In this document: in pieces, positions 2,991 through 50,555 of the stretch | Layout: every line of letters begins with the position of its first letter | How positions within the stretch are numbered: position 1 is the first letter of the stretch | From: Isoetes taiwanensis | Lineage: Eukaryota; Streptophyta; Lycopodiopsida; Isoetales; Isoetaceae | DNA length: 64,000 nt | Direction of reading: 5' to 3' | NCBI GenBank assembly: GCA_021234155.1 | Contig: JAJEKV010000010.1 | Coordinates: 6,796,871-6,860,870, forward strand | Program-made: the position numbers and the translations under genes | The notes under the pieces: model-generated | The model's input: the letters and a program-made list of their open reading frames with translations, nothing else | What the model was told of the DNA's origin: nothing | Database searches by the model: none

Positions 2991-3015
2991 CAAAAAAGAA
3001 AACTTTACGTGGGAA

Positions 3016-3150: not shown

Positions 3151-3159
3151 AAGGTGCTG

Positions 3160-5570: not shown

Positions 5571-5576
5571 AGCTCT

Positions 5577-5995: not shown

Positions 5996-5999
5996 GTTT

Positions 6000-28211: not shown

Positions 28212-28215
28212 CACT

Positions 28216-28237
28216 GGGTAAAAGCACGCTGTGGTGT
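28216..28237. repeat. Left terminal inverted repeat of the 22-kb element
   Basis: 22 bp, an exact reverse complement of 50530-50551; begins GGGTAAAAGC and is abutted by CACT. Confidence 0.9.
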
Positions 28238-28481
28238 TCCAATTCGGCTGTCCCCCCTGTCCCCCCAAAATGTGGCGTTGCATCCGCCACTTTTGTGGTA
28301 TGAAAGTATAATTATGGCACCGCTCAACTGCCGTTATTTAAGAATGGAGTCCCAATTTGTGGGGGAAATTCTAATTTCAAAAACTAAAATTCAAGTTCCT
28401 ATTCTTTGGCCCCTTCCTGTTCTTTGCCTACGTCCTGTTCTTTGGCTCCGTCCCTATTGCAAGCTCCAATCCATTGTGGAT

Positions 28482-31400
28482 ATGGATGTCAATGAGGTAA
28501 TCTGTCCACAAACCGGCATTTCAGACAGGAGAAAACGAAGAAGAACCAAGGAAGAAGAAATGTTGAAGAAAAGACGCCAGAGGAAAAGAAGAAGAGAAGA
28601 AAAATTGGAGCTTGCAGAATTGGCAGAAGGATCCGGTTCATCAAGAAGTGCAAGCAGTAAATGCCGTATTGTCCTTAATTTGCTAACGTCTTTCCATAAA
28701 CAGACCAAAAGAATTGAGGATAGCATGAAGAAAGAAATTTTATTTGAGTTTTTGAGAGATAAAACATTGAAAAAATTCATAGGTGAAGAATTAAAAGATT
28801 TGGAAGCCAAGAGCATCGTTATAAGGAGCCTCTGGTACTCCATGCAGACTGTCAAACTCTCTACCAGCAATGACTACCTAGCAGGCAAGAATAGCTGCCT
28901 TGCAATGTCTGTACCATGTCGTGCAGATTCTGAAACAAGTGACAAAATCAGCCAGCGAGATCTTGGAAAGGTATTAGGTGCTCACCCAAGAAATCTGCAA
29001 AAGGCAAAGAAAAAGAGGGAAGAGATCGATTACAATGGTGGGAAATGGGTTTCTTACAAGAGGGCTAAAAGATTCGATGCAATTTCAGATGAACATATAG
29101 AAAAGATTCAAAATTGTTGGATTGAGAACACCAGAGTGTCTCCTAACACAAAGGATGTTAGAACTAGAAGATTGGAGAGAAATGTAAGAGAAGAACATGC
29201 TGCCCACTATCTGGAGGAATCACAGGTTAGTTTATTTCTGTTATTCATATTTTCTTAGTTATGGTGCTTAGTGTGGTGGTGGCGTGGTGCATGTGGTGGT
29301 TATTGTGTTGTACAATGATTGTGGTGTACTGTATGCAGCATGTGAATTGTGTGTAGTTGACTCTAGTCTGAAATGCAATATTTATTTGGAATATTAGAAC
29401 ATGACAGAATTGAATATTCCTTTACTGGGTGTGTGTACAGTCTAAAAATATTTGAGAATGATAGATAACTAACTGATCCTAAGAAGTACAAATTTTTGTT
29501 GAATAAAGACAATTTTTTGTCAGATTCAAGCACAGCTCTGTTGGAAAGTATAATATATTAAAAAAAGGATCTTACAAAATTTGGCTTTACAAAATTTGGC
29601 TTTTCATTGAAAGCTCTGTACCTGAGAACTAAATTCACATGCATGTATGACTGGCTCGAGAATTGGTGCATCCAAAATTATTGTTTTCTGCACTAAAGCA
29701 TCTAAGCTTTCTGTAGTCATCCCAGAATTTAACAGGATGAGGTTTGCCAGTGCTTCCTGCATCCCCTGGTGGTAAGAACGCAACCCTGCCAGTAATTCCC
29801 CCTGTCGCGGACTCAGAGCGGGCAAGTGACAGAGAACAAATAAACCATCTGCCTTTGCAGCAGCATGTAACATAAGGTCATGGACCTTGTCTAAGAGCTC
29901 ACCTTTTTTTTTTTTTTTTGGTACATTATTGAGTCTAGAACTAAATTTTTGATACATATGCAAACGACACTAGGCTTATTTATATCCATGATCTTATAAA
30001 TATGAACAGCAATGCATGTGCATAAATGATACTACTTAAGATATTTGTCGAAGGATATACTTAAATGTGATCTAGGCTTCTAGTTTCTTTATTAATCCAC
30101 AACGTGGCTTTTAAAGTTGGCAAAAAAAAAGGAAGTATATCTAATACTGGGTTAAAATAAGGGCGAGAATTCTTTTGCAAAATTGAATGTTTATTTATCT
30201 GAATTTTGAAAATACACGTTATGGGTAAAATAAATGGCTTTGGATATAGTCAACTATGCAGTGCGGCATGCATTCACTAGATCTTTTCTGCAGATCCATG
30301 TACTCCACATATAGATTTCTTACAGATTTAAGCAGTGTACGATTCTGCTAAAGATGGAATGCCGAGTGTCTGATTGCTTCGGATTCTAGTTTTGGAGGTA
30401 AGCCTTGCATTAAAATTACAGATTCAAGCTATAAAGTTTGATCTCGGTATGTGTTCCACCACTGACGTGAGGTTTTATAGCGCAACTGCTAGGTTTAGAC
30501 ATGCATTTTTAGACATGCAGTTCCACACAGACAGTCCTTTTCCCGGGCTTTTCTTAGTCATACAGTATATAGAATGGAATTCGATTCCACACAAAAGAAA
30601 TATTTCTGAACTTCATAACAACCAAGCTTCCCTTCTGTGGGTCTGATTCAGAAGCCGAGTTTTTCTTGTTAACACTTATAAGGTTTTACCCAGCTCATAA
30701 GCTGGCCTCCACAGAGTCCCTCCAATTAAGTCTTAAGTTTAAGACATACAATGCTGCTGCGTTTAGGAAGGATACTGCCTCAAATAGATTACCATATGTG
30801 GCTTTTGAGCGACAAATGTAGGAGAGCTTTTGGTTGTAGTGGCGCAACCTTATCTCTAAAGACGTTGATGATGCATAAAGCAACAAGAGGCAATGGCATA
30901 TGCTTCACAACAAGATCAAACAGGTTAAAGAGGCAAAAGACTGCCATTGGAACAAGCATGTCGGGTGGCTCAGCTTGAAAAGACATCCCAAGAACAATCA
31001 GGTATTGGTGTGGCTCTCTAATTTTTGTTTTACTCTTGCAAAACATGGCCTTAAACAAGGCCCTCCCAACTTGCTAAAGTATTGCAGCATATCTTTAAGT
31101 ATGGCTTTTAGATGGAATACTTTTAGTGAATAACTATGGCTTATTTGCTGATATACAGTTGGTAAGTGTCATTGGGTAAAACTCTTGTGGACAGCATGCG
31201 CTTTCTTTTCACATTTATCCACTTGTAAAAAACAGGTGATAAACAAGCAACCTGGGGTCTGCTTCTGGTATTTCTAATTCTATATTCCTTAAGTTCTGCT
31301 AATTATTCTGAGATCAAGGTCTAGAAGTGCCATCATGAACTTTTACAGTTCTTGTACGGATAGATAATACTACCAAGGGATTTTTTTTTTTTTTGAAGAA

Positions 31401-34400
31401 CTGTATCATCAATATATTAAAAGAATGGTAATATTACAAAGCAAGTGAGGAGGAAGGAGAACTGCCCCAAAGAGACAGCGATACCTCGACACTCCACAAC
31501 AAACTCACAGAAAGACTGCAACTCTACTGCTGTACAAACCGACCATCACCATCTACAACACCCAAGAAGTCCCGCCAAATGGCAAACTTCCGCTCTACTA
31601 CTCCCGGGAATACCAGAAAGCTTTGAAATAGCTTGTACCTGAGTCGAGGAATCAGAGAGGCTGCAGGCTGCTGAATCCCCTGAAAGATCCACAACCGCCG
31701 CCGCTTCCAAATCAGCCACACCAACCAAGCCGTCTGTGCATGTGGAGTTGCCCTGGGCACTGTTGTATGGTCTCCGGCCTTTCCCACATGCATCCCCTTT
31801 TCTCACTGGAGTGTTGCGGGCTTGGGACCATGTGCGTGTGCTCTTCCAGCTAGATTATGCCTCAGTTTATCAATACTACCAAGGGATTGACCGAGGTAGA
31901 TGTTTTTTCTAGCTGGCTTTTGTCAAGGCTAGGGTAAGCTGGATTTTTTTTTTTTGGGAAGGTAAGAGATATTTTTTCCATTAATTAATAAAAGCTATAC
32001 ATAGGTGTTACTGATGAGAGGTGATCTCATTAGTTCCATTACAACAGCATCACTTGTCTAAAAAGTAGCAGTAGAAAGTTATTCAAATGAGTCAGTTAAA
32101 ACCCTGCTTGAAATAGTTAAACATTGCATAAGGAAAGATTATAGGTTCTGCCATGCCCCTATTGAAGGAGCTGATATGTAAGCCTGACAACAGCATCAAT
32201 GATGAACAGTCGATCCCAAAATTCCTGCAAGGACAAAAATGCTTTCCAAGTGCTTGAGCAAAATATTAGACGAGCAAGATTAATTATTGAGCAGTAGCAA
32301 ATATCAAAATGGAAGTTTGAGATCAGGCTTATGGAGAGTGATAAAGATGATGGCTATGTTGTTGGGGATTGTATGACTTGATCAAATATGGCATTTTAGA
32401 CCCAATAGAAACCTGAGTCTGTTCCAAACCTATAGTTGTTGAATTCAGATCCATTCTCCATTAGCAGCTGGTGTATATCTTGCTTACCCATCAGAAGCAA
32501 TAATGTACCATAGAGGTCTGCCAACATCTTGTGTGAGTAGTATAATTCCCTGTATCTACTCAGCTGCCTATCTGTCAGTGAGTAGTGGTACATGAACAGA
32601 AAACTGTACATACAATACATCTGCACTACTTCCCTGCAATAAATTCTGGCCCATGATGACTCATTGCTGTTGCTTCTCACATTGTAAAGCTTAATCTCAT
32701 CCAAAGTTGCATTTGGCCCTGGTGGCACTAGATTTGATACCCCTGAGCTATTGCAGTATAATGTAGCTTCCTGGTATGTAAGCATGGTATCAAACTTGTT
32801 CCTGCCTTCCCCTTTCAGAAACTCCAGATATTCTAACAAAAACCATCAGAGAAAGGAGCATTAGAATTGATGACATGGAGATAAGAAGTGAAGAAATTGA
32901 AAAAACCAGAGAAGTTACCAATGGAGTCCCATTTCCTGTCATAATTGTCTCCATTTTTATTTTTGTGAGTGACATAACTTTCCAAGTCTAGCTGGAAATT
33001 CATTTTGATCCAGAAAACAGAGACTTTTTTCTTACCATGTACTATCCTATTTCTTGCCTTCCAAATGTTCCAAAGGGCAGTGAAGACAATGGTATTGAGG
33101 AAAGCATCATTGTTTTGAATTTGCTTGAGCAAGTCCCCATGATTTCGAGTAGAGAAATGATGATTAAATTTACAATAGAACCAGGACCAGAAGTCAGCAA
33201 TTTTAGGACAGTTAAAGATATGTTGCAAAGTTTCATTATGAGAGCAATTCAATTGGCAAGCTGGGAGCACAATGGAAATTCTCTGAGAAAGGGAGACAAG
33301 GTTAGGCAGACTTTTCTGGGCAATCAACCAAATGAAGAAATTAACCTTAGGAGGACAATATGAGCATCAGATATTTCTATAAAGAATTTTACACTCCTCA
33401 TCCGAAATAGACCACTTGAGTTTAGCTTTGGCAGAATTATCTCTTTGATTGAGAATGGCATAGACAGAGCTAACTTTATATTTGTTATGGCCATTAATTT
33501 TAAACAGAGCCCCACAGTCATTGCCAATCAGATTGTTAGCTTGAGTCTTGAGATAAGATGCTTTTGAAGTGAAGGTACATGGCTTTGTCACTGGAAGTAC
33601 CATGAATAATCCTCCTAAGATTGGTCCAAGAAATAATGTGATCATTCCTATATAAATCCTTTACATGGGAGATACCATGAGAGGACCATTTCCTATAAAT
33701 CTTAGGATGTCTAAGAGCAGGGATATTATCAGCACAATCTTTGAATAGGGGAGACTAGAAAAGGGAAGAGTGCATATGAAGATCATGATTGACAGGTGTA
33801 TCAAAGCTACCTTGCACAATATTCCAAGCCTTGATCATGTTTTGCATCAAAGGGGAGGTATTTTTGCCAGGGTGCAAAGTATTGAGGGCTGAATCAGGTA
33901 AGCGATGCTGCACAGATGGATGGCCATCAGGATAAGACCTCTCAATCCAATATCTAATGAAGATCGATGCCATGGAATTGCTACCAGTCAGGGTTCTCCA
34001 GATGAATTTGCCTGCCAGGTCACAAGCTTGCAAGTATAGATTTTTGCAGCCCAAGCCACCATTTGACTTAGATCTAGTGACAGTATCCCAGTTAACAGAA
34101 TGAGAACCTCCCCATATGAAATTTCGGATAGTTTTCTCCAGCTCATTGTAAATGGATTTTGGAGCAACAAGAGCTGATGAGAAATAATTGTGCTTCCAAA
34201 AAAAAAAAAAAAAAAAAGAAATAATTGTGTGATGCTCCAAGAACCGAGTTTGCAATAAGAGTTCTGCCTGCCATAGATAAAGTATTTCTGAAGGTATTCA
34301 ATTTCCTCTTAATCTTTTGAAGAATTGGATCCCAGAGCCCTTTAACATTAGGATTCAGGGATAAGGGCATCCCAAGCAGCTTAGTTGCTTGTAAAGCATT

Positions 34401-37400
34401 TAAAAACTTAATGTCACAGAGGAAATTCTCAGTAGAGTCACCTACAATAACACTTTTGGCAATATTTAAATAAATTCCAGAGGCTGCAGAAAATAGATCA
34501 ATAATGTTTAAGAATTTGGCAATATTGTCATGATTAGAGGCCAAGAAAGCGAATGTAGGGGGCAGGAAGTTTTAGACCTTGCAAATTCCCACAATATTGA
34601 TGAAAATCCACTGCCCTAGTGAGCAACTCAGCAACAACCAGAAAAAGGTAGGGGGCAAGAGGACACCCCTGCCTTACACCCCGATCCAATTGAAAGAAAT
34701 TTGAAGGTGAACCATTAATTAAGACAGCTGAATTTGCCATGGAATTTAATCCAAGAATCAAGGAGATTATCTTGGAATTGAAGCCAATTTTTTTCAATGC
34801 AAATTCTAGGAAATCCCAATTTACAGAATCAAAGGCTCTTTTAAAATCTAGTTTTAAGAGCACACAATTTTGGCCAAAAACCCTATTCCAATGTAACCCC
34901 TCCATAGCCACAATATAGTTATCCAAGTTAAATCTATTGGGTAAGAAAGCAGACTGCTTAATATTAATTTTATCTTGGAGGAAAGGCTTGATCCTGTTGG
35001 CAATTAGTTTAGCACAAAGCTTGTAGGTAGAGTTGGTCAAAGAGATTGGCCTCCAATCAGGGAAAGATAAAGGCCTATCTATTTTAGGGACTAAGGTGAT
35101 AAAGCCAGCAGAAATTGAAGAGTGTAAATGCTCAGATCTCCAGAAGCCATGGACCAATTTAATGATATCATCCTTTAGAATATCCCAGAATTGCATGTAA
35201 AATTCTGGAGGGATCCCATCTGGTCCAGGGGATTTGCCTTTGCTAAAACTCAAGATTACCTTGTAAATTTCTTGCTCAGAGGGGATAGAGGCAATCGATT
35301 CATCCATCAAGCTATCAGAGTTTGGAATGATTTGGTCAATGAGTGAGACAAAGTCATCCCTTTTTGAAGTGGAGTTACTCATGGCATTGGCACAGTTACT
35401 AAACAGGGAAGCATATTTCTCCTGAAAAAATTGCTTGATATCTTTAGGAGCATCAATATTTAAACCATTGTCAGATAATACTTGAATGATGGAATTGTTG
35501 AGAAGCTTGTTTCTGGCAGTAAGAATTTTGAACTTCCCAGATCCATTTCTTTGTTGAATTTAATTTTGCATTTAATTGTATAACTCTTGGCCTCCATTTC
35601 CTCAATTGATTTTATTTTCTTTACCAAAACTTCTTCCCCAATTTGGAGAATAATATCATAGGGATGGGAATGGAGCAAAGCTCTAATATTCCTCATTTGT
35701 TCAAGATAGCAATCCTTCTGCCTGGTTTTCTCTTTAAAGATTGCTTGAGACCAGTTCTTGATCCAAGATTTAACTTGCTTGATCTTGGAATAGAAATTTT
35801 TCATAGAATGCTGACCATTGGAGCACAGATTAGCATCTAGCCTGTTTTGAATAGAGAGATAAAAATTCTTAAACTTTTGACAGAACTTATCATTATGCAG
35901 GAGGGAGCAGTTAAATTTGAAAGGAATATTACCCCCCAGGAAGATTCAGAAGATGCTTAGTATGAAAGAATTGAGGCTGGTGATCAGAGATAGAAATGGA
36001 TTCATCACTGACCACATAATAGTTATCCCAAAATGAATTGGAAGAATTTGAGACATAAAACCTGTTGAGAGCACAAAAAACTCTATTTGAGTTTTTTTGC
36101 TTGTTTGACCAAGTATAGATGGCAGTTGACGAGGGAACATGAATCAGATTAGAGTCAAAGATCAGGGAAAATCCCAGTTAGCTCCCTCAGTGGTGGACAT
36201 ATTTATTCTGTTCCCTAATTTCATATCCCAATTAGGGGTGTTATTAAAATCTCCAGATACAATCCAATCAATTGCAGGTTGGGATGAAATCCAATTATTA
36301 ATTTCTGGCCATAATAATTCTCTATCCTTTGGACATGTTGGAGCATAGATGTTGAGAACACCAAAACTAGAATTGTTAATGGAGAAAACTACAGCCTGCC
36401 AACATTTACTAGGACTATTATAAAAGGAGGCAAATCATGATGAGCCCCCCACATGTACCAGAGGATTCTATCCAAACAAAAGAAGCCCCTGGGAAAATCC
36501 AATCAGCCAGACTAGAGCTCTCAAATTTAGGGAGCTTGGTTTCTTGAAGCAGGATGAGGTCAGCCTTGTAATGTCTAAGTTGAGAAATTACTCTTCTTCT
36601 CTTGATGGGGCCTTTCATCCCCCTAACATTCCATGTCATAATCTTCATGAGATAAGATAGGAGGTGTCAAAAGGATCAGATAATTATCTGTTTCTCTTAT
36701 TCTTTTTACTCCTAGTGTTTCCAGCAGGTGTTTTGTAAAGATAAGAGGAGATATCAGGCTTGGCAAGACCTTTTTTCTTTTTAGATTTGGATTTATTCTT
36801 GACATTATTAGTCATAGAATCTTATATTATAATGTTGTGTAATGGACCACGCCCTAGATCTGACGGTCGAGATTAGATTAGAAAATTGGACGGTCGAGAT
36901 AGCCCTTTTATTTTCGTTCTAGCGATTTAGGGCTTCCTCAGCTATGGCGAAGCGGTGCAACAGCCATGGAGCCAAAGCTCGGCATCACCATCCGCCCAGC
37001 ATGGCCCTTGAAGAGCTTTGCCGCCCAGCATGGCGCTTTTGGCAGAAACGCCTGGTTAGATTCAGCCATAGATCCATAAACTCAGATTCAAGGGCTGGAA
37101 AAAATCACAAATAAAGAGAAGGATAAAACATAATCCTATGAGCGAAGATTCTACGAGTCGGTCTGTGCTTAACGAGCCAGTCTGTGCTTATTAGATTTGG
37201 GAAGATGGTGGATTGCTTTGTGGGCAAGATATTGTTGTTGGTTGGGTGAAGACAGGAAGGCTTCAGGTCAAAGGTTCTTTTGTCCAGGAACAATCCTTCC
37301 AAGTATGCATTTGGAGATTTGCTTGAAAAGCAGAATGGCTTTTGCTCGAGATTTTTAACTCTGTTTAACAGGTATTTCATTTTGCTGGCCGTTTCTGTAG

Positions 37401-40400
37401 AAACAGACCAATTTTGGATAGAGGCCCTTGCAAGAATCATTCTTCAGTCCGGCAGCAGACCTTCTCCTTCGCCTAAATGTGAAGAAATGTCCGGCAGCGA
37501 TATTCTATTGGGCAAAGCATGGCTTCACGATAAAACCCAATGTAAGTTTTTGGTTGTGTAATGATCTTAATGGTTTTTTTCGCAACCTTCGATCTTATTG
37601 TTTACATGTAGTGCTCTACTTCCCTTTTCCCCAAAACGGATTAGAACCTTAACTGGTCAGTTGCACACTGGTTATTTACCCGTGGTTTCAGAAAAGCTAT
37701 TCATGCAGAGCATCTTTTAAAGTATAGTATTTTTCAACGAAGGTAAGATTCGTTGCAAACCATAAATGAATTTGGATGATTCTAAGCAAATAGGGTCTTA
37801 ATCTAGAAAGATCTTAAGCTGTGGCGTACAAATTTACATCTTGACTGTTTTACGCATCTGCCTTCCTATTTATCCCTTTATTATGATTTATCAATAGTGG
37901 GTATGCTTAGTTCTGTACATTTTTTATTATAATTACAAGATTGGTAGATACTTCAGTTTCTGCCTTCCTATTTATCCCTTTTTTAGGATTTATAAATAGT
38001 GGTATGCTTAGTTCTGTACATTTTTCATTATAATTACAAGATTGGTAGATACTTCAGTTAGAACGCTTATGTTAGTTACATGACATGCAAGGAATGACAT
38101 TAATAAATGACAAAGGCTTTTGCTAGGCTTTTGCTAGGGTGTATGAATTATATATGTCCATTTTTACATATTCAAACATTGGGCTTTTTGAGTTTGAAAG
38201 GCATTGTATCCATCTGCAACGTATTACTTTGACTAGGCGTCCAATTCCAGTTTTCTTAGGTCCATGAAGTCTGTATGTCATGGGTCTGAAGTCTTAGGTG
38301 CAAGGTCTGTCCTTGAAGCACTATTATTGTTTGACATGCTAACTATGGAGTAAAATTTACAGGATCTCCAGGAATTACATGGACCATCCATTGCAGAATA
38401 TGGTGGCAAGCAAACAGAGAGACAGAAGGAAATTCATGCAGCATGACGGAAGGAAAAAATATTGGATGCATTTTCATTCCTGTCACATATGCACATTGCA
38501 TAATTTTCCCTTTTTAAAATTAGTGCAGATACGAGTGTAGCTCGCTAATTGCTAAGTCATTCCACTTCAAAATCAATCTCTCTCAACTCTATTGATGGGT
38601 AACTTCCTTAGTTTAGCGCTGATATATGATTGCCGCTCATATGTAATTAGTTCTGGAGTATTTGTATAATTTATTTTCTGCTCCAAGATGATGCATAAAT
38701 GTGCAGCAAATTGCAACTCAGCCTCAGCATGGGGGAAAGCTGTTGCTACCTCAAACACAGAACCATCGATGTCTTAAGCTTTATCAAATTTGGCATTTTG
38801 ATTGGACATGTAAATTTATTGTTCTGTTATGTATATTTGATGTAGACTTTAACAGCAATACTGTTTCTGTATATAACGATGGATGAAAGTAGGCAAAGTA
38901 TTTTTCACATGTGGCTCTGGTCGCGGTTCCGGAGGTCTAAACAAAGCTGCAATTAATAAACAGAGTTTAGAAGAATTGGCTTGCTTTGAATCTTGATAGA
39001 CATATGTGCAACTGGCTGCTGTGCAGCAACACTGGAAGCAGATGCAAGTGTGGTAAATGTCTCATAAACATTCTACTCTTGACATAGAGTCTAATTCTGT
39101 TACATGTACATTACTCTCCTTAGTATTCCATCTGGTTCATGCATATCTCCCTTATATAGGGTTGTCTTTTAATTCTATTTATCAGCTTGATTCTAAGTAT
39201 GCACAGGCAAGTCAAGGGTGCAAAATTTGGTGTTTTTGATAAGAAGAAGTTAACCTAATCTGAAGACCAATAATCAATGTTATTGAACTTGAGACCTTTT
39301 AATTGCAACATATGTGCCCGCTCTTAATATGGAAGCCCTATATAAATGCACCTCTGACAGTCGTTGATGGATCGCAACACAGTGAAAGTGCATAAAGAGA
39401 GACAATTTTTGCAATTTAGGATTGGTTACCCAATTAATTGTCTTTAATGCGTTTTCAAATTGGTAACATGAATTTGCCCTCATTGTCGAAGCGTCATTGT
39501 TGCACACTCATGTAATAGAAAAACAATGACACAATTGGTTATTCTACTACTTACAAATGAGTGCATTATTCTTGGACTTTTACTTCTTGGCACAAGGTCT
39601 ACGAAAATACATGTGTCTACTTATGGGTATAAATTGTATGTTTGTTCGTCGCGATATATTGTTATTCTTGAGCCATGAATGGTAACAACTCTTCTAAGGA
39701 TCAATTTAAGATTTAAGATGCTCCTACTTATATGTGACAATGCCGTGCATCCATTTACTTTGAAAATCCATCATTTAACTGCAAAGTTAATACATTGATG
39801 ATACTGCCACTAGACAATTTCGACAACAAAAATATTTACATAAGCAAATCATGTCCATTCTTGCAAGCATCAACCTGTGATGTTCACGGAAGTTGTAGAA
39901 TGAACATTAAATGCCAAGTAAAAACATAAGCTAGGACATTAGCCCGGCAACGCCGGGCACACGTCTACTATCATACCATAGTGTCAAGCATCCCTTAGGA
40001 CATATGGGGGCCTAGGAGTTACTCTTTCATTTCAAAAATGATCCAAGGGACGAGACATTAATCTACAAATGCACAAGTTCCCAAGATTTACAGCTTTCAA
40101 ATTATGCCTAGCAACGCTGGGCACTGTTACTAGTTATCTGATAAAAATTTTTCCTTTCCCCAATTTTCTTTATCACTGTCAAACTCGTTATCAGAACAAC
40201 CACCAGGTATAAATTCAAATAAGTTTAAGGGATTTTCTTTAGTAACATCCTCATTAGAGAGGTACTTGCCTTTTACATATGTCTTCATTGTTGCAACTTA
40301 GTGGAGTGCTCGAGTTATGAGAATATATAGCATAATAACAGGGGGTTTTCTTTGTGTTTTTGTACGCTTTTCACAAAGGTTCTCCTAAGATTTCATGGCG

Positions 40401-43400
40401 TATTCGAATGGATGTACTAATGCGTACATCTAGAGTGCACCATTTCTTAGTCGTTGATTTAGTTTTTTTTTTCAATGGTCCAACATCCAAGGGCTCACAA
40501 CAAAAACCCTCTTTTTATTTTAGGGGCTGAACATGCAAGCCTCGTGGATAGCATTTTAGGGCACGAAACAGGGCTTGCAAATCTGCAACAACAGGGATTA
40601 GCAAGATAAGATTACAGGCCGTGAATATGCTAGCAAGAAGAGAATACAGTCTGCTTTAAAGCAAGAAAGGCAATTGACGGAATGAGTACTCCAGCATTCA
40701 CTAGGATCCGGCAGCATCCTTTCAAGTCTTGGTGAGGGTTGGAGCGGCCGTTGGTTTTGTTGAAGAGGAGAAATCATGTGGTTGTAAGCGTCCTTTCTTT
40801 GTTTGCTTGCTTTTCCTTTCCCCCTTCATCAACAAATCGAATCCCACACGACGAATTGCCTGATGGATGCAATTTTTCAAGCTGTAGGTCATTTTTGAGC
40901 TGAGCGCCATAGCTCAAGATGGACGAGGCAGCGGGATACCTAATACACCATGGCCACCGGACTTGGCTGCTTCATGGATCCGCCATCACCATCAACAGCA
41001 ACGCTATTACAACCGTCTCTGTTGCCGACTCACATGCCAGGTTCAAGAATTTTTTCCATCCCTAAAATGCAGCTTCGGTAAATCTCTTTTGGTTTTAATT
41101 CAACCCAGATCAAAGCATCAAACCATTTTCCCGGATCAAAAAATGGTTTCCACAAGATCAAAAACCTCAAAGCGGGGTTTTTTTGGCCGATTTAGGCAGT
41201 TCGATGGAGCAATTTAACCAAGAAGAAGAAACAGAGGAAGAGCAAATGGTGGACATGGTGGTTCATTTCGTCTGGAGAATACTCCAGATCACAATGCCTT
41301 CTCTAGCTCACCATACACTCTCTGTTTTTAGCCCCAAACATGCAGGTTTTCCTGAGTCTCCTGCTCAATTGAAAAAGGTTGAGCCTGACAAGATTCAACC
41401 CAGGAGATTAATTGCACTTGAATCCACAGCTGAAGATAGTGAAACATTTTGTGATGCTGCTGACACGCTTGATCAGAATGACACCATAGCCAGTACTTGC
41501 AAAGTAAGCTTGGATGAAAGATTAAGCTTGGACCAGCAATAAGATAATCCTTTACAAATTCCTACTGAGTTATACAATGATCCAGCTGCCAGAGATTTTA
41601 TTATGAGAAGATTTTTGCCTGCTGCTAAAGCTATGGCTGATGAGCCTATGAATCCTTCTGCCATGCCATCCATCACACAGATAGTTCCTTCCATGGTTAG
41701 AAGCCAGCCTGCGCGGGGAATGCAAAAAGTCACGTTGGCACCTACTCCTCCAAGGCCTCCTCCTAAGAAACCCAGTCCTGGTATATTTGATACTCTTGTT
41801 CATAGAAGGTTTCGTAGCTGGGCAAAGCACATTACAGACGGATTTAACAGCATTGGTTTCTTTGAAAAACTCGTTGAGTAATGCCGATGGGAAATTAAGG
41901 AGCTGGAATACGGCAGCAAATGGTGCACCTTGTTTGTGGAAAGGAGTATCTTGTTCAGAAGGAAGAGTGGTCGGGCTCCGCCTTCCTGGACTGGGTTTGC
42001 AAGGAGATGCAACAGGTACTCTACAACTCTTAATCATCTAATGTTTAAGTTTAATTGATGCAAAATGACATGGGTAATCCTCGTTTTTTGAGCAGAGTTG
42101 GGGAAGCTTGATGCTCTTCAGAAGCTGAGCCTTAGATCAAATCGCTTCAATGAAACTTTACATTTTCTGGCTAGCTTGTCCAACCTTAGGCTAGTAAACT
42201 TGAACGACAATAACTTTCTTGGAGGTATTCCTTCTAACATAAGCTTTCTTGGACGGCTTGAGGCCTTAAGCATTGGTCACAATTGACGGAATGAGTACTC
42301 CAAAATTCAGTGGCCCACTCAGAAGAAAAATGCAGCAAGAAGCAGAGCAATCAATCCCAAATCTCTCCTTCAGTACGTCTTCCTCTCTACCTAATGTAAG
42401 TCCTCTGTTTTATTTTTGTTTATGCAGAAATAAAGCCGATTTAGGCAGTTCGATGGAGCAATTTAACCAAGAAGAAGAAACAGAGGAAGACCAAGGAAGG
42501 TTAGATTTCAATGCACCTATAAGGTCCCTTCGCACACGCAGAAATGGTGGACATGGTGGTTCATTTGTGAAACATTTTCTGATGCTGCTGACACGCTTGT
42601 GAAACATTTTCTGATGCTGCTTACACGCTTGATCAGAATGACACCATAGCCAGTACTTGCAAAGTAAGCTTGGATGAAAGACTAAGCTTGGACCCTTTTA
42701 CCATAGAGTCAGTGTGCCACCACAACACACAGAGTTGTTTATTGTTGCGTGGAAATGTTGTTTTGCATCATTATTATTTACCTTGGTTTCTTCAAAGTCC
42801 TACTACAGCAAAGATTTCTATAAGATATGTTTTTTCACATTCTATTGCTTGTTGAGCAAGAATTTATATATATGGTGTTTGAACTTGTAATAGTGCTGAA
42901 TGGATGTTTCTTCATTTCTCGATGTTAGGTGGAAGATTTTCCCATTTTCTTTCTACTTTAGTTAGGGCCCGAAGGGCCCAAAATTTTTTTTAATATAACA
43001 ATCAATACACAACTACCATTAACATTATTAACATTAACCATTGCATTTGACACATTTAAATTAAAATCCCCCTTAAACCCCCTTTGGTTTGGGTGCATAT
43101 TCACACGGGGGGTTACGTAGGGCAGCGAGAGCTCTAAAAATATATTTACAATACGTGTATAAAATTAACACCATTAAGTACATTCTCTCAAACCTTATAG
43201 TATTTTGCAAATTTTAATATACAGTATACAAAAACTTGTACATGCATACCCCACAAACGAGGATCACTTTGCACGGTCCAGATCTTGGAATAAAGGGTAA
43301 ATATGCCCATCCGACAGCTCTCGTTGCCCGGAGTAACCCCCCGTGTGAATATGCACCCAAACCAAAGGGGGTTTAAGGGGGATTTTAATTTAAATGTGTC

Positions 43401-46400
43401 AAATGCAATGGTTAATGTTAATAATGTTAATGGTAGTTGTGTATTGATTGTTATATTAAAAAAAATTTTGGGCCCTTCGGGCCCTAACTAAAGTAGAAAG
43501 AAAATGGGAAAATCTTCCACCTAACATCGAGAAATGAAGAAACATCCATTCAGCACTATTACAAGTTCAAACACCATATATATAAATTCTTGCTCAACAA
43601 TCCCAATCTGACATCTGCAGAATCCTGCTCAACTGCCAACAGCCCCTGCTCTGGTGTCTCCACCACCACTTGTTCCTCATTGTCCTTGTGTACAAAAGTT
43701 GCCTCAGTAGCTGCCAAGGGCTCAGTATAATTGGGATCAGTTAACAGACCAGCTTGCAGAGTGGCAAGCTATTCTGCAATTTCCTTGGAGACTGGAGAGG
43801 TGACTAAAGGGGAATGACAAGACAAGGTATTCAAGTCAATTAAGGGGTCAGAGAGGTTTGGATGGAGAGGGGAGATATATTCTGTAGGAGGGAGAGGAAT
43901 GTCCATGATGTGGAGGCTAGAATTGTTGCTCAGTAATAAATCAGACTCTTGATCTACATTTAAATAAGCAAGTACCTGAAATTGATTAAAGCAATCAATT
44001 TTGTCCACAATGTTGTCAAAAGAATATGCATGAATAAGATCCTGAACTTTGGGAGGAGCTAATGAGACCGAGTCATTAGCATTCTTGTCTTGATTTGCTG
44101 ATGTAGAAGTACCTGGATTAATGATTTGGAGTTGCCTTTTGTGTTGCCATTGGAAACTTTATCCATAGCAGTGGTCGATGTTTTGGAAACCCTTTCCAAG
44201 TCAGTGTGCTTTGTTGAAGCAGATTTCTTTGGCTCAAAATGTATGTCATTTCCAAAGTTTTCCTGCCAGTATTTTGTCACATATTTTCAAGCCTTTAAGA
44301 ATGGCTGGTTGCTGAGAGGTATGGCTTTTAATAATCAGTGGAACACTCTTATGTTTTGGAAGATCCAAGTGATCAGCTGATTTCTGTGGTTGGAGGATGT
44401 AATTTCCTTTGGCTCCAGCCATGACCTGATTTAACAAGTCATGAAGTTTTTCTGTCTGCAGTTCATTATGCTGAATTGGTGCTTTGCCTTTGTCTTTGAC
44501 ACTTTCTTGATTCTGCAGGACTTTTACCCCTGAATCATGAAATCCTTTGGAGTATTGAAAACCTTTACCATTGTTGAACATTATCTGGAGAGCCTTTTCC
44601 ATTCTTTTCGTTTGTTGATTTCTGATTCTCCTGCTACTGCCATTTTCTCTATTCCATTGGAACTTTTGACTGAGGTCTTTATCTTGAGAAGTCAAACTCG
44701 AGTTGACTGACTTGTTGACTGACTTCTCTGGACCCTGCATTTCATTGATCTTGTTTGTATGGCCATTATTAAAATTTGGAGCACAAATCTGTTGATCTAG
44801 TACAGCTCTGCACGAATCTTCCTCCTTTTGTGGACAATCTGTGTACCAGAAATGTCTCTTCATACAATGCTGACAATGTGGAGGTAATCCTGACCATCTC
44901 AGAGATAGACAGGTGGATTGGCCAAAGGCATCAGAGAAGGGAATGGATGTAGGGATAGTTTTGGATAGATCTAGCTGGATGAAAGCTCTTGGGGATCTCG
45001 AGGGTGAAAATTCAGTGCAAATATAGTTACCAATTGAGTTGAAAAGAAGTTTGAGGCAATCTTCAGTCCAGTAAATAGGATTTAAGCCTTGCAGAGTAGT
45101 GGAGGCCACACACAAATTATCTATACCCTCAGAGTTGAGTTTGGGGTCCCATTTTAGGAATGAAAGTTGATATGACTCATAACTATGGGAACCAAGTTTT
45201 AAGAGATAATTTGCAGTCCTCTGGTTGCCACATTCTACCATGATATAGAGATAGGTTAGCCAGTACATAGCATTTATAAGAACTCCCTTTTGAAGATTTA
45301 GGCAGAAAGACCAGAGCTTATCTAACTGAATGCCAGATCTAGAGACCTTAATGAGGACAGCTGTATCTTTGAGAGAAGCAATTTTAGAATGAACATAAGG
45401 TAGATCAAGAGAAATACCATGGTAGATCTTTTGCTTGCTCCCTTCAATTGGTCGAAGTTCCTTTAAGGCAGCATCATAGTTTTCATCTGGCAGGATCTCG
45501 GCAGTTGGTTTCGGGACCCTATATGGCAGAGGAACTTGGGTAACTGGATCAAGAAGAGGAACCCGGCCCCACATATCAGGATCTTTCGAGAAATTATCCC
45601 AAACAGGAGTTTTGAAAGTTTTTGGATCCATGCCCTGATATTGATCTGCAAGGTTAGCGAAATTGCCAAAGAGAATAATTTCTTCTGGATTGTTATGGAA
45701 AGAACTTAACTTTTTGAGGACCACAGATCGATCTTCAGGCGATAGAGCAGAGAAAGAGTGAAGAAAAGGCAAAATTTAGGGCATGTAATTTTTATTTTCC
45801 ATATAAGAAAGAGCAGGAGAAAACAACAAAGGGAAATTTGAAAAAGAGGAGCTCGGGAAGAGAACAAAGGGGAAGAAGAATAGAAAATTTGGACACAGGA
45901 AAGACCTTAGGAACTATCTATCAATGAGAATGACAAGTTAACTCCACAAAGCCAGAATTATCGAAGTTGAGCAAGAGTTTCCCTTTAATTTTCAGAGAAA
46001 TCTCCCAATTCCACTTCTGAGTACAGCTTGATGGTAATTTTAGAATCAAATTGATCACTGTATGCTCTTATGGCAGTTGTTGCTTCAATGTTCTTGGAAT
46101 CAAGAAACTCCTCAAGCCAGGAATCAATTATCTGTAATTCAAATTCTTCACATCCCGGGACAAAGGAGCTTTCGGGTTGAAAAGAATTGTAAGGAAATAA
46201 ACCTCTGAAGATCAATGAGTTTCACAGATCAGAGGAATGACCAACAAGAAAACCACAAGTAAGTCTGTGCTCCTGTTTAAGAATTGCAAAGATTTGGGTA
46301 TCCATGGATAGATCTTTGCATTCTAATTTCAAGGAAATGCTAGCCTCTACAAGGTTAGCTCACGATCCAGAGGAGATTGTGGTTCAATCCGGGTAGATCA

Positions 46401-48135
46401 AGCAATTTCTCACAGAAAATTGCCAAGAAAATAATTCAAACCAAATTTGGAGGTAAAAGACAAAAATCAAGAGCTCACTTCCTGTCAATCCGACCCCAAG
46501 CATAGCCATTGAAGGCCCAGCATCCAGTCTGCTGTATGGCTTTAGGGTGGATTCGAAATCAGCAAAGAAGGTGGATTTACGCATTTCCACCTTCAGAGAT
46601 TGGTCACGAGTCCTATTTAACATATGCCGAATGCCCTCCTCGCTCACTCGAGCGAGGCCGTAGTGATCTCTGAACATCCCTACCATTGCCGGAATGATCT
46701 TGTTCGAATTGAGAATGAAACGCCAAAAATCAGACGCAGGAACAGGATTTAAAGGAATGTAATTATTATCAGGGTGTATTTCAGAAATGTTTATGAGAGC
46801 AGGCTAGGCAGATTTTTTATGTCAGACGAAATAGGATAAAAGTGATGTGATGTGATGTGTGGTGTGGTGTCGTGATGGTGTGGTGTAGTGTGGTGTGGTG
46901 CATGGTGTGGTGTGGTGTGTGGTGTGGTGTGGTGTGGTGTGGGGTGCGTTATGCCTATGGTGTCATGTGGGTGTGGGCATGTTAATGTATGATATGTGTG
47001 GATTCAATTTTATTTATTCTCCCCCCTCACCCCACCACACCCCACCATCTATCCTACCACCATAGACTACCACCACATCTTTGCGACCACCACATTACCA
47101 CCACATGCACCACATTGTCCATTACCACCACACTCCACCACACTCCATCATATATCCCACACCACACCCCTCCACCACCACTACACTCCACCACCACCAC
47201 ACTCCACCATATCCACACCACACCCCCTCCACCACCACCACACCACCACCACCACACTCAACCATCTACCACACTCCACCACCACCACCACCACACTCCA
47301 CCACACCATATCACACCACAATCCACAACACCACACCCACACCACCACCACCACACCCCCCACCACACTCCACCACCACCACACTCCACCACACCACACC
47401 ACCACCACCACCACACCCGACCACCACACCACATCATACCACCACACACCACTACACACACCACCACCACCACCCCCACCACCACACTCCACCACCACCA
47501 CTCCACCACATTCCACCACCACCACCACACTCCACCACCCTGCACAATGTCCTACAACTCCTTGCTACCACCACACATTTGGTGTATGGTGTGTGGTGAA
47601 TGGTGTGGTGTGTGGTGGGGTGGGGTGTGGTGTGTGGTAATGTACACAGCACTAAGGTGCTCGTTCTGGTGAATATGATGAGTGTGGGGCATGGTATGGT
47701 GCATGATTTGGTGTGGTATACACATCCTAACAAATTAGTGTTCATTTCATGCAGATGCTATTGTTCAAGAGGTTTCTGGACCAACATCCAGAAATTAAGA
47801 TTCGTCTTCGAGCTTTTGAGAAGTTAAAACCCTGGTTTGTTGTGAAATTGACGGACTTCAATAGTTGTTGTTGTATTCAGCACGTGAGGATGCAAATGCT
47901 AGTGGATGGACTCAATGGGATGAGAACCAAACATCCGAAGAATTGCACTTGCACCTGCGATGTTTGTAGATCACATGAACTTGGTCAATGCAGGGCACAC
48001 CAGCATAAAATTGCAAGTACAGGAAGCTTGTGGAGATCTATATTGTGTCCAAAGAGTGAATTAGATGAGTTTCACAAGAAGGCGTGCATCCTTGGAGATT
48101 GTGAGCTATGTGGAATCAAGAAGTTTCAGACCTGA
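28482..48135 (+). CDS. Gene A of the 22-kb element: Lys/Arg-rich, cysteine-cluster protein, two exons, possibly its transposase
   Basis: Exon 1 is 28482-29225 (248 codons, donor GT at 29226) and exon 2 is 47755-48135 (acceptor TTTCATGCAG); both junctions are phase 0. The start chosen is the ATG before MDVNEVICPQ; an earlier in-frame ATG at 28272 would run into the subterminal repeats. Features: a strongly basic stretch at residues about 16-42 (nuclear localisation likely), GAHPRN and TRVSPNTKDV motifs, HYLEES at the exon junction, KPWFV, a CCC-x2-H cluster at about 286-291, CTCTCDVC at about 312-319 and CELCG near the end, suggesting zinc binding. I recall similar uncharacterised proteins from seedless plants and algae (memory only). 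The frame ends soon after the cysteine region, so it may be truncated. The 18.5-kb intron contains a LINE and other nested elements. It is the best candidate for a mobility protein. Confidence 0.6.
29260..29345 (+). repeat. Short GTGGTG-rich run in the gene A intron
   Basis: Imperfect GTGGTG/GTGTGG words directly downstream of the exon 1 donor. It is of the same type as 46841-46980 and may be part of the same original repeat, now separated by the LINE. Confidence 0.5.
29604..29963 (-). CDS. Exon-like ORF in the gene A intron, unrecognised
   Basis: An open frame of about 100 residues after a poly-lysine artefact (poly-A at 29905-29922). It reads ELLDKVHDLMLHAAAKADGL, LSPRQGELLAGLRSYHQ, with amphipathic helices, and breaks at a CAG|GTACAG donor near 29621. 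It looks like one exon of a captured helical protein. A distant likeness to the DOG1/TGA-factor helical domain crossed my mind but is not convincing. Nothing recognisable lies around it from 29.97 to 31.36 kb. Confidence 0.3.
   Translation of the reverse strand: MHMYQKFSSRLNNVPKKKKKGELLDKVHDLMLHAAAKADGLFVLCHLPALSPRQGELLAGLRSYHQGMQEALANLILLNSGMTTESLDALVQKTIILDAPILEPVIHACEFSSQVQSFQ
31383..31871 (-). mobile_element. 5'-truncated LINE insertion (489 bp) with 17-bp target duplication
   Basis: On the minus strand it ends in poly-A (poly-T at 31381-31394) and is flanked by identical copies of AATACTACCAAGGGATT (31366-31382 and 31872-31888). Its sequence encodes the tail of an L1-type ORF2 (WLIWKRRRLWIFQG near 31700). 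Target-primed reverse transcription is thus well supported. Confidence 0.9.
32396..32839 (-). CDS. Third open frame downstream of LINE ORF2, unrecognised
   Basis: A 147-residue intact frame after ORF2 and before the poly-A end, starting MLEYLEFLKGEGRN. It contains a Tyr-rich centre (MYCMYSFLFMYHYS) and YSHKMLADLYGTLLLLMG. Plant L1 elements do not normally encode a third protein here. It could be transduced or captured sequence. No domain recognised. Confidence 0.35.
   Translation of the reverse strand: MLEYLEFLKGEGRNKFDTMLTYQEATLYCNSSGVSNLVPPGPNATLDEIKLYNVRSNSNESSWARIYCREVVQMYCMYSFLFMYHYSLTDRQLSRYRELYYSHKMLADLYGTLLLLMGKQDIHQLLMENGSEFNNYRFGTDSGFYWV
32833..36648 (-). pseudogene. LINE ORF2 (endonuclease-reverse transcriptase), inactive
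   Basis: It starts at the ATG at 36648 with MTWNVRGMKG and LLQETK, the AP-endonuclease signature. A linker follows (35804-35460). RT from 35382 has KSPGPDGIPPEFY, LKLDFKRAFDSVNW and RGVRQGCPLAP. The catalytic F/YADD box is missing: the frame passes from LPAPYIRF directly to LASNHDN near 34550-34535, a deletion of about a dozen residues. The thumb and C-terminal zf-RVT (NCSHNETLQHIFNCP, ALWNIWKARNRIVHG) follow in shifted frames to 32833. Frameshifts, the poly-A insertion at 34193-34217 and loss of the active site make it dead. Confidence 0.85.
34193..34217 (+). mobile_element. Minimal poly-A retro-insertion with 12-bp target duplication
   Basis: CTTCC plus about 20 A is flanked by identical GAAATAATTGTG copies at 34181-34192 and 34218-34229. 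This is the footprint of a target-primed insertion that retained essentially only the poly-A tail. Confidence 0.85.
36690..40297 (-). pseudogene. LINE ORF1 C-terminus, interrupted by Helitron
   Basis: The frame VATMKTYVKGKY (40297 down) to GKEKFLSD (40134) continues after removal of 36820-40133 as NSMTNNVKNKSKSKKKKGL and stops near 36690. It is also in frame with VRLG at 43601. The basic C-terminus is typical of ORF1. Confidence 0.75.
36820..40133 (+). mobile_element. Helitron (3314 bp) inserted in LINE ORF1, plus orientation
   Basis: It starts TCTTATATTATAATG (36820) and ends with hairpin GCCTAGCAACGCTGGGC (40106-40122) then ACTGTTACTAG (40133). It is flanked by A and T with no duplication. 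Excision restores the LINE ORF1 frame exactly. The ends match the pyrimidine-tract Helitrons, so it is the same terminal family, but the interior is unrelated AT-rich DNA with no Rep/helicase. A second hairpin, GCCCGGCAACGCCGGGC at 39952-39968, resembles an older internal 3' end. Confidence 0.85.
41160..41800 (+). pseudogene. Captured fragment of a DUF688-like gene
   Basis: An open frame gives SMEQFNQEEETEEEQ, then DTLDQNDTIAS near 41490, and RDFIMRRFLPAAKAMADEP at 41592-41650. The last is a close match to the conserved RDFMM-RFLPAAKAMA block of the plant DUF688 family (function unknown). A proline-rich PRPPPKKPSPGIFD follows, then an abrupt switch to LRR-kinase sequence near 41790. A TAA at 41540 interrupts one frame. 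It is a chimeric, non-functional fragment. Confidence 0.6.
41787..42286 (+). pseudogene. Captured N-terminal fragment of an LRR receptor-like kinase
   Basis: Exon 41787-42015: signal-like start, then TDLTALVSLKNSL, LRSWNTA, CLWKGVSC, GRVVGLRLPGLGLQG, a classic LRR N-terminal cap. Intron 42016-42095 has clean GT..AG ends. Exon 42096-42286 carries LGKLDALQKLSLRSNRF and LSNLRLVNLNDNNFLGGIP repeats, ending at IGHN. The pattern resembles subfamily III kinases (RLK902-like). No membrane or kinase part is present. Confidence 0.8.
42849..43600. repeat. 752-bp near-perfect palindrome (285-bp arms, 182-bp centre)
   Basis: Arms at 42849-43133 and 43316-43600 are reverse complements almost throughout (TTGTTGAGCAAGAATTTAT against its complement at the outer edges; GTGTGAATATGCACCC near the centre). 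The right edge coincides with the junction to LINE ORF1. Such a structure would extrude as a long hairpin and give hairpin RNA if transcribed. It may be a foldback element or an inverted duplication made at insertion. Confidence 0.9.
43601..45772 (-). pseudogene. LINE ORF1 (RNA-binding protein), N-terminal and middle part
   Basis: A 508-residue open frame (45772-44246) carries FGNFANLADQYQGMD near its start, TIPFSDAFGQSTCLSLRWSG, and a zinc-knuckle CQHCMKRHFWYTDC near residues 305-318, as in plant L1 ORF1 proteins that coat their RNA. Downstream in shifted frames (44280-43601) the acidic tail continues. A TAG at about 43770 interrupts it, then SKEIAE and VVVETPEQG lead to VRLG at 43601, where the 3.3-kb insertion starts. 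Confidence 0.75.
45985..46686 (-). CDS. Open frames upstream of LINE ORF1
   Basis: 46686-46384 (100 residues) and 46215-45985 (76 residues) are in the LINE orientation. They may be the LINE 5' untranslated region or a decayed leader ORF. No known domain. Confidence 0.25.
46841..47640. repeat. GTGGTG / CCACCA minisatellite before gene A exon 2
   Basis: 46841-46980 is GTGGTGTG-rich. 47021-47577 is its complement type (CCACCACAC words) and 47578-47640 returns to GTG type. It lies in the gene A intron, ending about 115 bp before exon 2. Long open frames here (His/Pro/Thr or Val/Trp/Gly only) are artefacts. Confidence 0.85.
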
Positions 48136-48421
48136 TGGAAGAAAGTGGTAGTAACAGGATACTTGTTAAGGCACTTACTTGTGTCTATTGGTTCTTGTGG
48201 TACCACTCGAACACCAAAAGCCAAAAGCCATGTCTCAGTCATAATGTGGGCACAACTGGGGCTGCAGCAGGTTCTAGAGTGTCTGCAAAACAAATTCAAA
48301 ATCAATAGAGTCTTTAGACGAGGGTTAGAGATGATAATATTTACCTCAAATGGTGTGATAGACATGGAATGTGATACTGGTGACTGCATTCTGCTATCAC
48401 AACTGGCAACATTTTACCCTC

Positions 48422-50334
48422 CTATTTCAGACAACGTCCACAAAATGGACAACCTTCATCACCCTCTTGTTCTGCCTCAGGAAGCATTGGAAGTGCAGGG
48501 TCTAAAGGAGTGTCATGACCACTACGCTCAGAAAAAATCTCAAATCTTTGCATTCGAGGTTGCAGCTCCAGCAGTAAGTCTTCACATGCCTTTAGCTCAA
48601 TTTCAGTTTCTGCTAGTTCCTTACTTAATTGATTCAGCCCAGGCAACACTGTACCATTTAGCTCTTCATCCTTTAGCTCGCTTACAACCCGAACACCCTC
48701 TGCTGCTTTCGGATTTGCTGTCATGATTAATTGCCATCTGTGCAAATCAGCTCTAATTTCTGATGCTTTATGCTCCATCAACTCAATCTTTCTTTTGATA
48801 TCATTTTTTCTATCCTCGTTTGCTTGCAATCGTTGCTTGCATCTATCAAACCTAGTTGATGTTGCAGCCAACCATTCCTTCACAAGTCTGCCATAGTCTG
48901 CAAAACAAAACACTACGTATATGTCAGCCTCCTAACATAGTAAGCCACGTACTGATGGAAGACCACAATCATACACCACACAACACAAGGTACTCTCTAC
49001 ACACCACCACATACCACACACCACACAACATACGCTGCACAATACACACCACACAACACGCTGTGGTGGTAGCAAGGAGTGGTGGGACATTGTGCAGGAT
49101 GGTGAAGTGTGGTGGTGGTGGTGGTGTGTGGTGGTGGTGGGGTGTGGTGGTGGGGTTTGGTGGTGGTGGTGATGGGGTGTGTGGTGGTGGTGGAGTATGT
49201 GGTGTGGTGGTGGTGGAGTGTGGTGTGGGACATGGTGGAGTGTGGTGGTGGTGGTGGTGGTGGTGGTGGTGGATTGTGGTGTGGGACATGGTGGAGTGTG
49301 GTGGTGTGGTGTGGTGTGGTAGTGGTGGAGGAGTGTGGTGGTGGTGGAGTGTGGTGGAGGGGTATGGTGTGCGACATGGTGGAGTCTGGTAGTATGGTGG
49401 TGGTGGTGGTGGTGGAGGGGCGTGGTGTGGGACATGGTGGAGTGTGGCGGTGGGAGATGGTAGAGTGTAGTGGTGGGAGATGGTGGGGTGTGGTGTGGGA
49501 CATGGTGGATGCCAACAACTCACCACTCACCAGACCACACATACCTCATCTACCATTCTGGCATCCATTGCACGAAATGCCCCACAGATGGCATCATAGA
49601 GACGCAACATGACAATACAGCCAACATGATGCAAAATGGTAGTAGACATACCTAATTCTTGAAGTGGATTCGAGGTTACCTTTTCTGTGTTGATAGAAAC
49701 AATTTAGGTCAAGCTTGAGATTTTTTTCTGTTGTAACACAACTAATAATTGAACATACCTGCAATGGCATGTTTTGGTCTCAGAACATTGCTCTGCTTTT
49801 CTGTTTTGATTGTGAGTTCGGATTGAATGTGTGGTCTAGAGGAACTTGTTGATTTGGTTCTTTCCCTATCGTCTTCATCATCCCTGTCACTTTTACTATT
49901 TTCCTCCTGGTCAGGTTGGATTTGCCTATGCTTTCTCTTGGGTCTAGAAGAACTGGCCTCTGCTTTCTCATCGGGAGTTTTATAATAATCTGAGAAGCTC
50001 TTCCAATTAACAGCCTCCCCCTTTATATGCAGATAATAAGCCACTGCCCAGGTTCCAGGAGCCATTCCACCCCCATGTATGTGGCTTCCCTGTAATTCTT
50101 TTGTAAATTTGCATGAACTCTTTGGATTGTTCATTGCTCAGATTCTTCAACATGTACAAGAAAACATATGCCTTAATTTTTCAGTTTGAACAAAACATTT
50201 GGGGGAAAATACCTGTAGCCAGATTTATTTGGAACTCTGTCACCCCAAAGCTTCTTTAGATCTTCATGGAGCACAATCTCTTGTTTGAGGAGAGATTTCA
50301 TCGTGTAACCAGTGGCATTTAATTCTGACTCCAT
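48422..50334 (-). CDS. Gene B of the 22-kb element: coiled-coil protein, three exons, convergent with gene A
   Basis: Exons 50334-50213 (ATG at 50334, MESELNATGYTMKS, KKLWGDRVPN), about 50136-49759 and 48898-48422. The last junction joins ...HAIAG to DYGRLVKEW in phase, with good donor (CAG|GTATG) and acceptor (TTTTGCAG). Exon 2 carries KSFSDYYKTPDE and an Arg/Lys/Ser-rich acidic-basic region. Exon 3 is about 158 residues, predicted coiled coil (heptad-rich, many E/K/L), ending in CPFCGRC. Exon 1 splices into a frame that needs a one-base change in the five-C run at 50017-50021 to join the exon 2 frame, so it is either slightly broken or a consensus error. Its intron 2 contains the GTGGTG minisatellite. 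Function unknown; a partner of gene A is inferred from shared residence only. Confidence 0.55.
48960..49515. repeat. CCACAC / GTGGTG minisatellite in gene B intron 2, inverted relative to 47.0-47.6 kb
   Basis: 48971-49060 is CACCACAC type and 49063-49510 GTGGTG type. Around the switch it has TAGCAAGGAGTGGTGGGACA, the complement of the sequence at 47540-47577. The two arrays are thus inverted copies, about 1.4 kb apart, flanking the convergent 3' ends of genes A and B. Confidence 0.8.
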
Positions 50335-50529
50335 TAGGGTTCAATCGGCAAGAAGCGGCAAAAAAATAGAAGAAGAGGTGATTATTTCTTAATTCAATGA
50401 CGTTGCATAAAATTCAAAATAACCGACGCTCATTAATTTGCACTCCCGCAATATCCGCTTCGGTATGCACCACCTGATTCTACCACAAAAGTGGTGCCAA
50501 AATGTGGCGTCAAAATGCGCGTTTTTGAT

Positions 50530-50551
50530 ACACCACAGCGTGCTTTTACCC
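50530..50551. repeat. Right terminal inverted repeat of the 22-kb element
   Basis: 22 bp, ends GCTTTTACCC, followed by the duplicated CACT at 50552-50555. Confidence 0.9.
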
Positions 50552-50555
50552 CACT

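Follow-up and report, generated by a model that had tools for sequence, protein, structure and literature searches.

A probable nonautonomous, internally deleted copy of a multicopy cut-and-paste transposon in Isoetes taiwanensis

We analyzed a 64,000-nucleotide stretch of the genome of the lycophyte Isoetes taiwanensis (C908:6796871-6860870; hereafter the window) and studied a DNA transposon inserted in it, searching the genome assembly of 1,658,258,908 bases in 1110 contigs for its relatives. The element starts and ends with perfectly matching 22-bp terminal inverted repeats (28216-28237 on the plus and 50530-50551 on the minus strand; 22,336 bp from end to end), which begin with GGGTA; 100 shuffles of the window contained no match to such an end pair. 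The repeats are bordered by the 4-bp target-site duplication CACT on the left (28212-28215) and on the right (50552-50555), and shortly inside them lie two palindromes, CCACTTTTGTGG at 28287-28298, with its reverse complement present near the right end, and CCACAAAAGTGG at 50483-50494. The insertion interrupts the minus-strand pol gene of a chromovirus-type Ty3/gypsy retrotransposon: in Pfam searches the right flank matches the gypsy protease, reverse transcriptase, and integrase core and the left flank the SH3 and chromodomain, and the element therefore split the gene between the integrase core and its SH3/chromo end. With the flanks joined in silico, a single frame runs across the junction, with one stop about 10 codons away, and the junction is contiguous in 40 of the 40 scored genomic matches to the interrupted gypsy element (84-93% identity; 4054 first-look candidates). 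These empty sites are related gypsy copies lacking the insert and not the orthologous locus of another plant. A preliminary description of the sequence had proposed the inverted ends, the flanking CACT, and the restoration of the integrase frame upon removal, and all three were confirmed, which makes the ends exact.

The window copy carries two convergent genes, both predicted to be spliced. On the plus strand, exon 1 of gene A (28482-29225) encodes the basic N terminus of a predicted transposase in an open frame followed by a GT donor at 29226, and exon 2 (47755-48132), homologous to exon 2 of the full copies described below, encodes CCC-H and CxC cysteine clusters and ends in TGA with no catalytic domain. 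The predicted splice (29225/47755) is supported by a protein from the alga Klebsormidium that aligns on both sides of the exon junction, family exon 1 matching its residues 484-626 with E 2.6e-14. Gene B, on the minus strand, consists of exon 1 from the first ATG (50213-50334), a lysine- and acid-rich exon 2 (49759-50136) with a frame slip that is absent from the open version in a sister copy (L060:3-383), and exon 3 (48425-48897), which encodes a coiled coil and the first cysteines of a probable RING finger and then reaches TAG; the splice sites of this gene were placed by eye. The basic and cysteine-rich parts of gene A, the coiled coil of gene B, and the convergent, spliced arrangement all agree with the preliminary description. 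That description had also taken the final CPFCGRC as the end of gene B. This motif is not a natural gene end but the opening half of a probable RING finger severed by the stop: the probable second half (AECSHQYHIPC) lies past it at 48344-48421 on the minus strand, and in L060 exon 3 is open through both halves.

The distance between the ends is largely due to material foreign to the transposon. Alignment to other copies and Pfam matches identify an L1-type long interspersed nuclear element (LINE), with further nested material, in intron 1 (29903-46468, minus strand); the left end of the block carries a run of T, and the block is flanked by its own 10-bp duplication, AAGAGCTCAC, at 29893-29902 and 46469-46478. 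The LINE comprises ORF1 (44249-45775; DUF4283, E 8.3e-5, under its cut-off), a reverse transcriptase (34537-35559; RVT_1, E 1.5e-21), and a zf-RVT region (32836-33366; E 5.1e-8), all on the minus strand. The block accounts for 16.6 kb of the window copy and leaves about 5.8 kb as the transposon proper; an interior swollen by nested elements was thus rightly suspected, the suspected element proper of about 7 kb being too long. The label of a 22-kb giant in its own right is refuted by the LINE with its own duplication and by eleven full copies of 9.5-10.6 kb, and we give it practically no credence. Compared with these eleven copies, the window copy is short by about 4 kb: family positions about 3338-7395 are absent at a 24-bp internal-deletion scar (48149-48172), and tblastn of the modules indicates that the catalytic part and C terminus of the transposase, the NIF domain, and the Ulp1 domain have been lost.

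With at most three mismatches allowed, the 22-mer occurs in the genome 791 times in forward and 732 times in reverse orientation, against 2 and 1 occurrences of the reversed control. The preliminary description had asked whether the ends recur and allowed for their occurring at no other locus, a case that did not arise. Among the 100 matches listed, we retrieved 12 plus/minus pairs and later the tips of 8 more. Identical 4-bp duplications flank 19 of the 21 end pairs (11 of the 12 fetched copies, 7 of the 8 tips, and the window): AAAA, TTAT, CATG (twice), CAGT, AAAG, ACGT, AAGA, TTCA, TACT (twice), TTAA (twice), ATCA, AAGG, ATAA, AAAT, AATC, and CACT. The two TACT copies (C919:7894453-7905686 and 7925168-7935263) are neighbors and, because their flanks are near-identical, probably represent one insertion duplicated with its surroundings. 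Eleven of the 12 fetched copies have the full length and tblastn matches to all nine modules, with order and strands constant.

Full copies on the same strand are 91-93% identical to each other. Outside the repeat arrays, the share of variable columns (those with differences in 3 or more of the 11 copies) is 0.295 at CG vs. 0.091 and 0.319 at CAG/CTG vs. 0.083, and differences between copies (L009-L025) are about three times commoner at these sites, with indels among them. The excess fits either nanopore error at methylated sites or true deamination. Because the variation is concentrated in this way, we dropped the dating of the family from copy identity; much of the variation between copies may be sequencing error, and frame breaks in the assembly are not to be trusted at face value.

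The preliminary description had attributed the transposase to gene A or to longer versions related to it, and the full copies indeed carry the catalytic half, extending exon 2 with the motifs VDFAENY, FSDG..SQFK, and HGKGEHDG. A genome search scored 150 transposase copies out of 5269 first-look candidates, and among them is a frame that stays open over 593 codons, of which the first 142 fall in the intron array and the remaining 451 begin where exon 2 starts. When residues 376-610 of the assembled protein served as the query of a protein search, 44 relatives were retrieved at E ≤1, with values from 2.7e-62 to 2.7e-12. The named ones are proteins of Klebsormidium nitens (KFL_005820050; E 1.3e-49; 41% core identity to the Isoetes transposase), the mollusc Mytilus trossulus (LOC134726055; 8.1e-24; 29%), and the echinoderm Holothuria leucospilota (HOLleu_11877; 3.4e-16; 25%), all annotated as hypothetical or uncharacterized; the remaining relatives are metagenomic proteins without an organism name. 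Compared as proteins only, these three belong to the same catalytic family and have D-D-D at the same positions. The acidic triad that the preliminary description suggested looking for is present as three aspartates in 45 of 45 sequences of an alignment including all 44 relatives, and in 46 of 46 of a second alignment, with a spacing of 84 and 40; the second kept only sequences with the first motif and left out P0044, which reads DFAEK and is present in the first. We accordingly read the gene A family as encoding a putative transposase with a conserved D-D-D triad.

The ratio of nonsynonymous to synonymous substitution rates (dN/dS) is 0.30 for transposase exon 2 (439 codons, two branches) and 0.175 for exon 1 (234 codons) against a farther sister with a synonymous divergence (dS) of 1.7; between exon 2 of L043 and L059, dS is saturated. 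All dN/dS values given here are rough and without confidence limits, one side being a majority sequence and frame breaks being bridged by local alignment. Pfam transposase families gave no match for the Isoetes pieces (E up to 1) and none beyond chance in 10 of the 44 relatives (E up to 10), solved structures gave no convincing match to the transposase, neither the truncated gene A nor gene B gave a match in protein searches at E up to 0.01, and nothing was confirmed in viral, prokaryote, and phage collections. As a side observation, the animal-type relatives P0033-P0035, the last from Mytilus, have a long C terminus resembling an OTU protease (Pfam E 0.045 for P0033, below the cut-off; by eye for P0034 and P0035).

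On the strand opposite to the transposase, 11 of the 12 fetched copies have tblastn matches to a coiled coil with a RING, an FCP1/NIF-like domain, and an Ulp1-type protease, so that the original count of two genes was too low for the full copies. The sister copy L060, with 74-89% DNA identity to the family by piece, has kept its frames better: the coiled coil and both RING halves lie in one frame (1471-2052), followed downstream by NIF (PF03031; E 3.6e-15) and then Ulp1 (PF02902, Peptidase_C48; E 1.2e-4), over the cut-off. By eye, the Ulp1 pieces show what we take to be the His, Asp, and Gln-Cys motifs of the consensus. At least 61 of the 150 scored transposase matches have an Ulp1 match (150 scored) within 12 kb; among the matches listed, the Ulp1 is on the opposite strand in 61 of 61 pairs, downstream in 59, and at 1.5-2.6 kb downstream in 51. 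Between branches, dN/dS is 0.39 for the coil and RING, 0.51 for gene B exon 2, where the alignment is partly out of frame, and 0.53 for NIF. The opposite-strand exons may belong either to one polyprotein or to several genes.

Farther sisters retain parts of this arrangement. L059, whose transposase stands at 67%, starts with GGGTGAAAGCATGGTGTAGTGG and has the subterminal block TGTCCCCCCTGTCCCCCC in common with the family. In L061, beside another 67% transposase, the expected strand contains a NIF-like piece (E 9e-7); the NIF and Ulp1 pieces of L061 both look decayed. Repeat arrays are a further shared feature. In the window, a C-rich minisatellite, the reverse complement of GTGGTG, lies in intron 1 shortly 5' of exon 2 (47157-47539), and a G-rich GTGGTG minisatellite, inverted relative to the first, lies in the gene B intron (49100-49490). 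A GTGGTG-rich array just before exon 2 occurs in the window, the family, L060, and L059, with units that differ, and the inverted array in the gene B intron occurs in the window, the family, and L060. GTGGTG is also found within the 22-bp end repeat of the family and not in that of L059. Counting both strands, the majority sequence has 63 and 76 GTGGTG matches in the two arrays and 1 at positions 2900-8150. Our guess is that the arrays are candidate binding sites for proteins of the element.

Judged by its sequence, the element is a real cut-and-paste DNA transposon, and we consider it highly probable that the window copy is a nonautonomous, internally deleted member of a multicopy family of Isoetes taiwanensis, including the mechanism and the accessory role outlined here. 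In the full copies, one strand is predicted to carry a split gene for the transposase and the other, in convergent orientation, exons encoding a coiled coil that has a probable RING, an FCP1/NIF-like phosphatase domain, and an Ulp1 SUMO protease. The transposase would use its basic, cysteine-rich N-terminal half to bind the ends, its presumed RNase-H-like D-D-D core would excise the element, and the element would be joined to the target by cuts staggered by 4 bp; the ends, the duplications, and the triad point to such cutting and joining. The opposite-strand gene, probably accessory as the preliminary description had it, would most likely act on the host SUMO/ubiquitin system, either aiding transposition or opposing silencing; the analogy is with Ulp1-bearing Mutator-like elements and Ginger1. 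The VANC-type genes of such Mutator-like elements, which carry Ulp1, have been tied to hypomethylation, at noncoding motifs, of elements of their own kind (PMC13317346). The window copy would be mobile only if a full copy supplied the transposase.

Several observations weigh against parts of this reading. Transposition was deduced from sequence alone and none was witnessed, and none of the copies examined was shown to be fully open. A matching duplication is absent at two of the 21 end pairs, C908:3752298-3778920 and C208; the latter 12-kb stretch (L026/L027) has only the end parts of the family around a different interior and may be a derivative copy or two unrelated ends. The RING was called from a weak zf-rbx1 match in the window read-through (E 0.0017, below the cut-off, with X at the stop) and a Cys/His pattern seen by eye; the L060 frame has no Pfam match for a RING and reads AEYSHQYH where the family and the window have AEC. 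The NIF motif is D-x-N (LDFNGVL) instead of the D-x-D of FCP1-type enzymes, which makes its catalysis doubtful. The family-majority Ulp1 stays below the Pfam cut-off (E 0.0011), the Ulp1 trace of L061, on the expected strand, is marginal (E 0.024), and the sole module match in the 10 kb examined at L059 is a poor 33% Ulp1 stretch (E 0.005). Finally, dN/dS of the Ulp1 part is 0.96 (116 codons, one pair), indicating no constraint.

This last value would suit an explanation in which the NIF-like and Ulp1 exons were picked up from the host and ride along as passengers, without contributing to transposition. Plant transposons do carry transduplicated genes, Ulp1 included (PMC13317346), and the literature covered, by titles and the beginnings of abstracts and with few subscription journals, offered nothing relevant on a NIF domain in a transposon. 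Against passengers speak the same module order and strand in 11 of the 12 fetched copies and in L060, the lower dN/dS of NIF and of the coil and RING, and the NIF-like piece beside the 67% sister transposase. We regard the passenger explanation as unlikely and prefer an accessory role for these exons.

The gene set is the novel part of the element, and a new superfamily is possible but unproven. The preliminary label of an unassigned superfamily stands within the libraries searched, which include no Sola reference, and none of the papers covered, by title and beginning of abstract, described this element. To our knowledge, Pfam has no Sola model, and none surfaced in our scans. The chance that the element belongs to a superfamily already named, Sola (Sola1 or Sola2) being the likeliest, with a profile merely missing from the libraries, is in our view about even. 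Sola1 and Sola2 resemble the element, by description only, in their 4-bp duplications, short inverted ends, and DDE/D type (PMC3627910 for Sola2), and both are reported in bivalves (PMC10294476), one relative of the Isoetes transposase being from a mollusc. No direct evidence speaks for membership; the duplications found here vary in sequence whereas those of Dictyostelium Sola2 families are AWWT (PMC3627910), and the descriptions covered do not mention a RING/NIF/Ulp1 set.

Ginger1 also has 4-bp duplications and a transposase with Ulp1 or OTU protease domains (PMC2836005), and a weakly OTU-like stretch ends some animal-type relatives of the Isoetes transposase. The Ginger1 features of CCGG or CCGT duplications, TGTNR ends, inverted repeats of 40-270 bp, and a gypsy-type integrase are, however, missing from the element, and Ulp1 lies on the opposite strand instead of forming a C-terminal transposase domain. 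Ginger1 membership was rejected, as CCGG or CCGT/ACGG duplications were seen at 0 of 19 sites and the ends begin GGGTA, not TGTNR; the gypsy-type integrase core, rve, was found neither in 10 of the 44 relatives (E up to 10) nor in the Isoetes catalytic pieces (E up to 1). KIU/Kaonashi and VANC-type Mutator-like elements (MULEs) are likewise plant DNA transposons with Ulp1 on a nontransposase gene (PMC13317346), and the element differs from this group in its lack of a MULE domain, its 4-bp duplications, and its additional RING and NIF. MULE membership was rejected with no MULE transposase domain in the Pfam scans; one relative had a match to Zea_mays_MuDR, a MURB-like family, that stayed below the cut-off (E 0.13). 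A CACTA/Chapaev transposase domain gave no Pfam match in single-protein scans, which can miss distant members.

Some further features were seen around the nested material and in the rest of the window. The LINE block contains what looks by eye like a fragment of a leucine-rich-repeat gene near 42080-42290, duplicated pieces at 41186-41534 and 42435-42694, and an inverted-repeat element (42849-43600) with 285-bp arms, 99% complementary, and 182 bp between them. Frames downstream of the L059 transposase look LINE-like by eye, and a frame beside the sister transposase at L060:4809-5456, with no Pfam match, resembles by eye the frame near 32396-32845 in the LINE region of the window. At 54838-64000, the window has a long pyrimidine-rich tract with a GC skew of -0.45 to -0.69 and repeated blocks of up to 300 bp that are 87-99% identical.

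A far-reaching possibility, which we put forward tentatively and hold to be rather improbable, is that the transposase defines an unnamed eukaryotic D-D-D superfamily whose range takes in charophytes and lycophytes as well as molluscs and echinoderms, in which the lycophyte members carry, in the convergent gene, their own ubiquitin/SUMO toolkit of RING ligase, SUMO protease, and phosphatase-like domain that shields them from silencing, perhaps via recognition of the GTGGTG arrays in both introns. Members of the transposase family itself occur in a land plant, in an alga related to land plants, and in animals, and the family is unmatched by the Pfam transposase models scanned. The element adds a case to the recurrent pairing of a transposase with an Ulp1- or OTU-type protease, in this instance alongside a probable RING and a phosphatase-like domain, and its multicopy family offers a place to test what such proteases do for a transposon.

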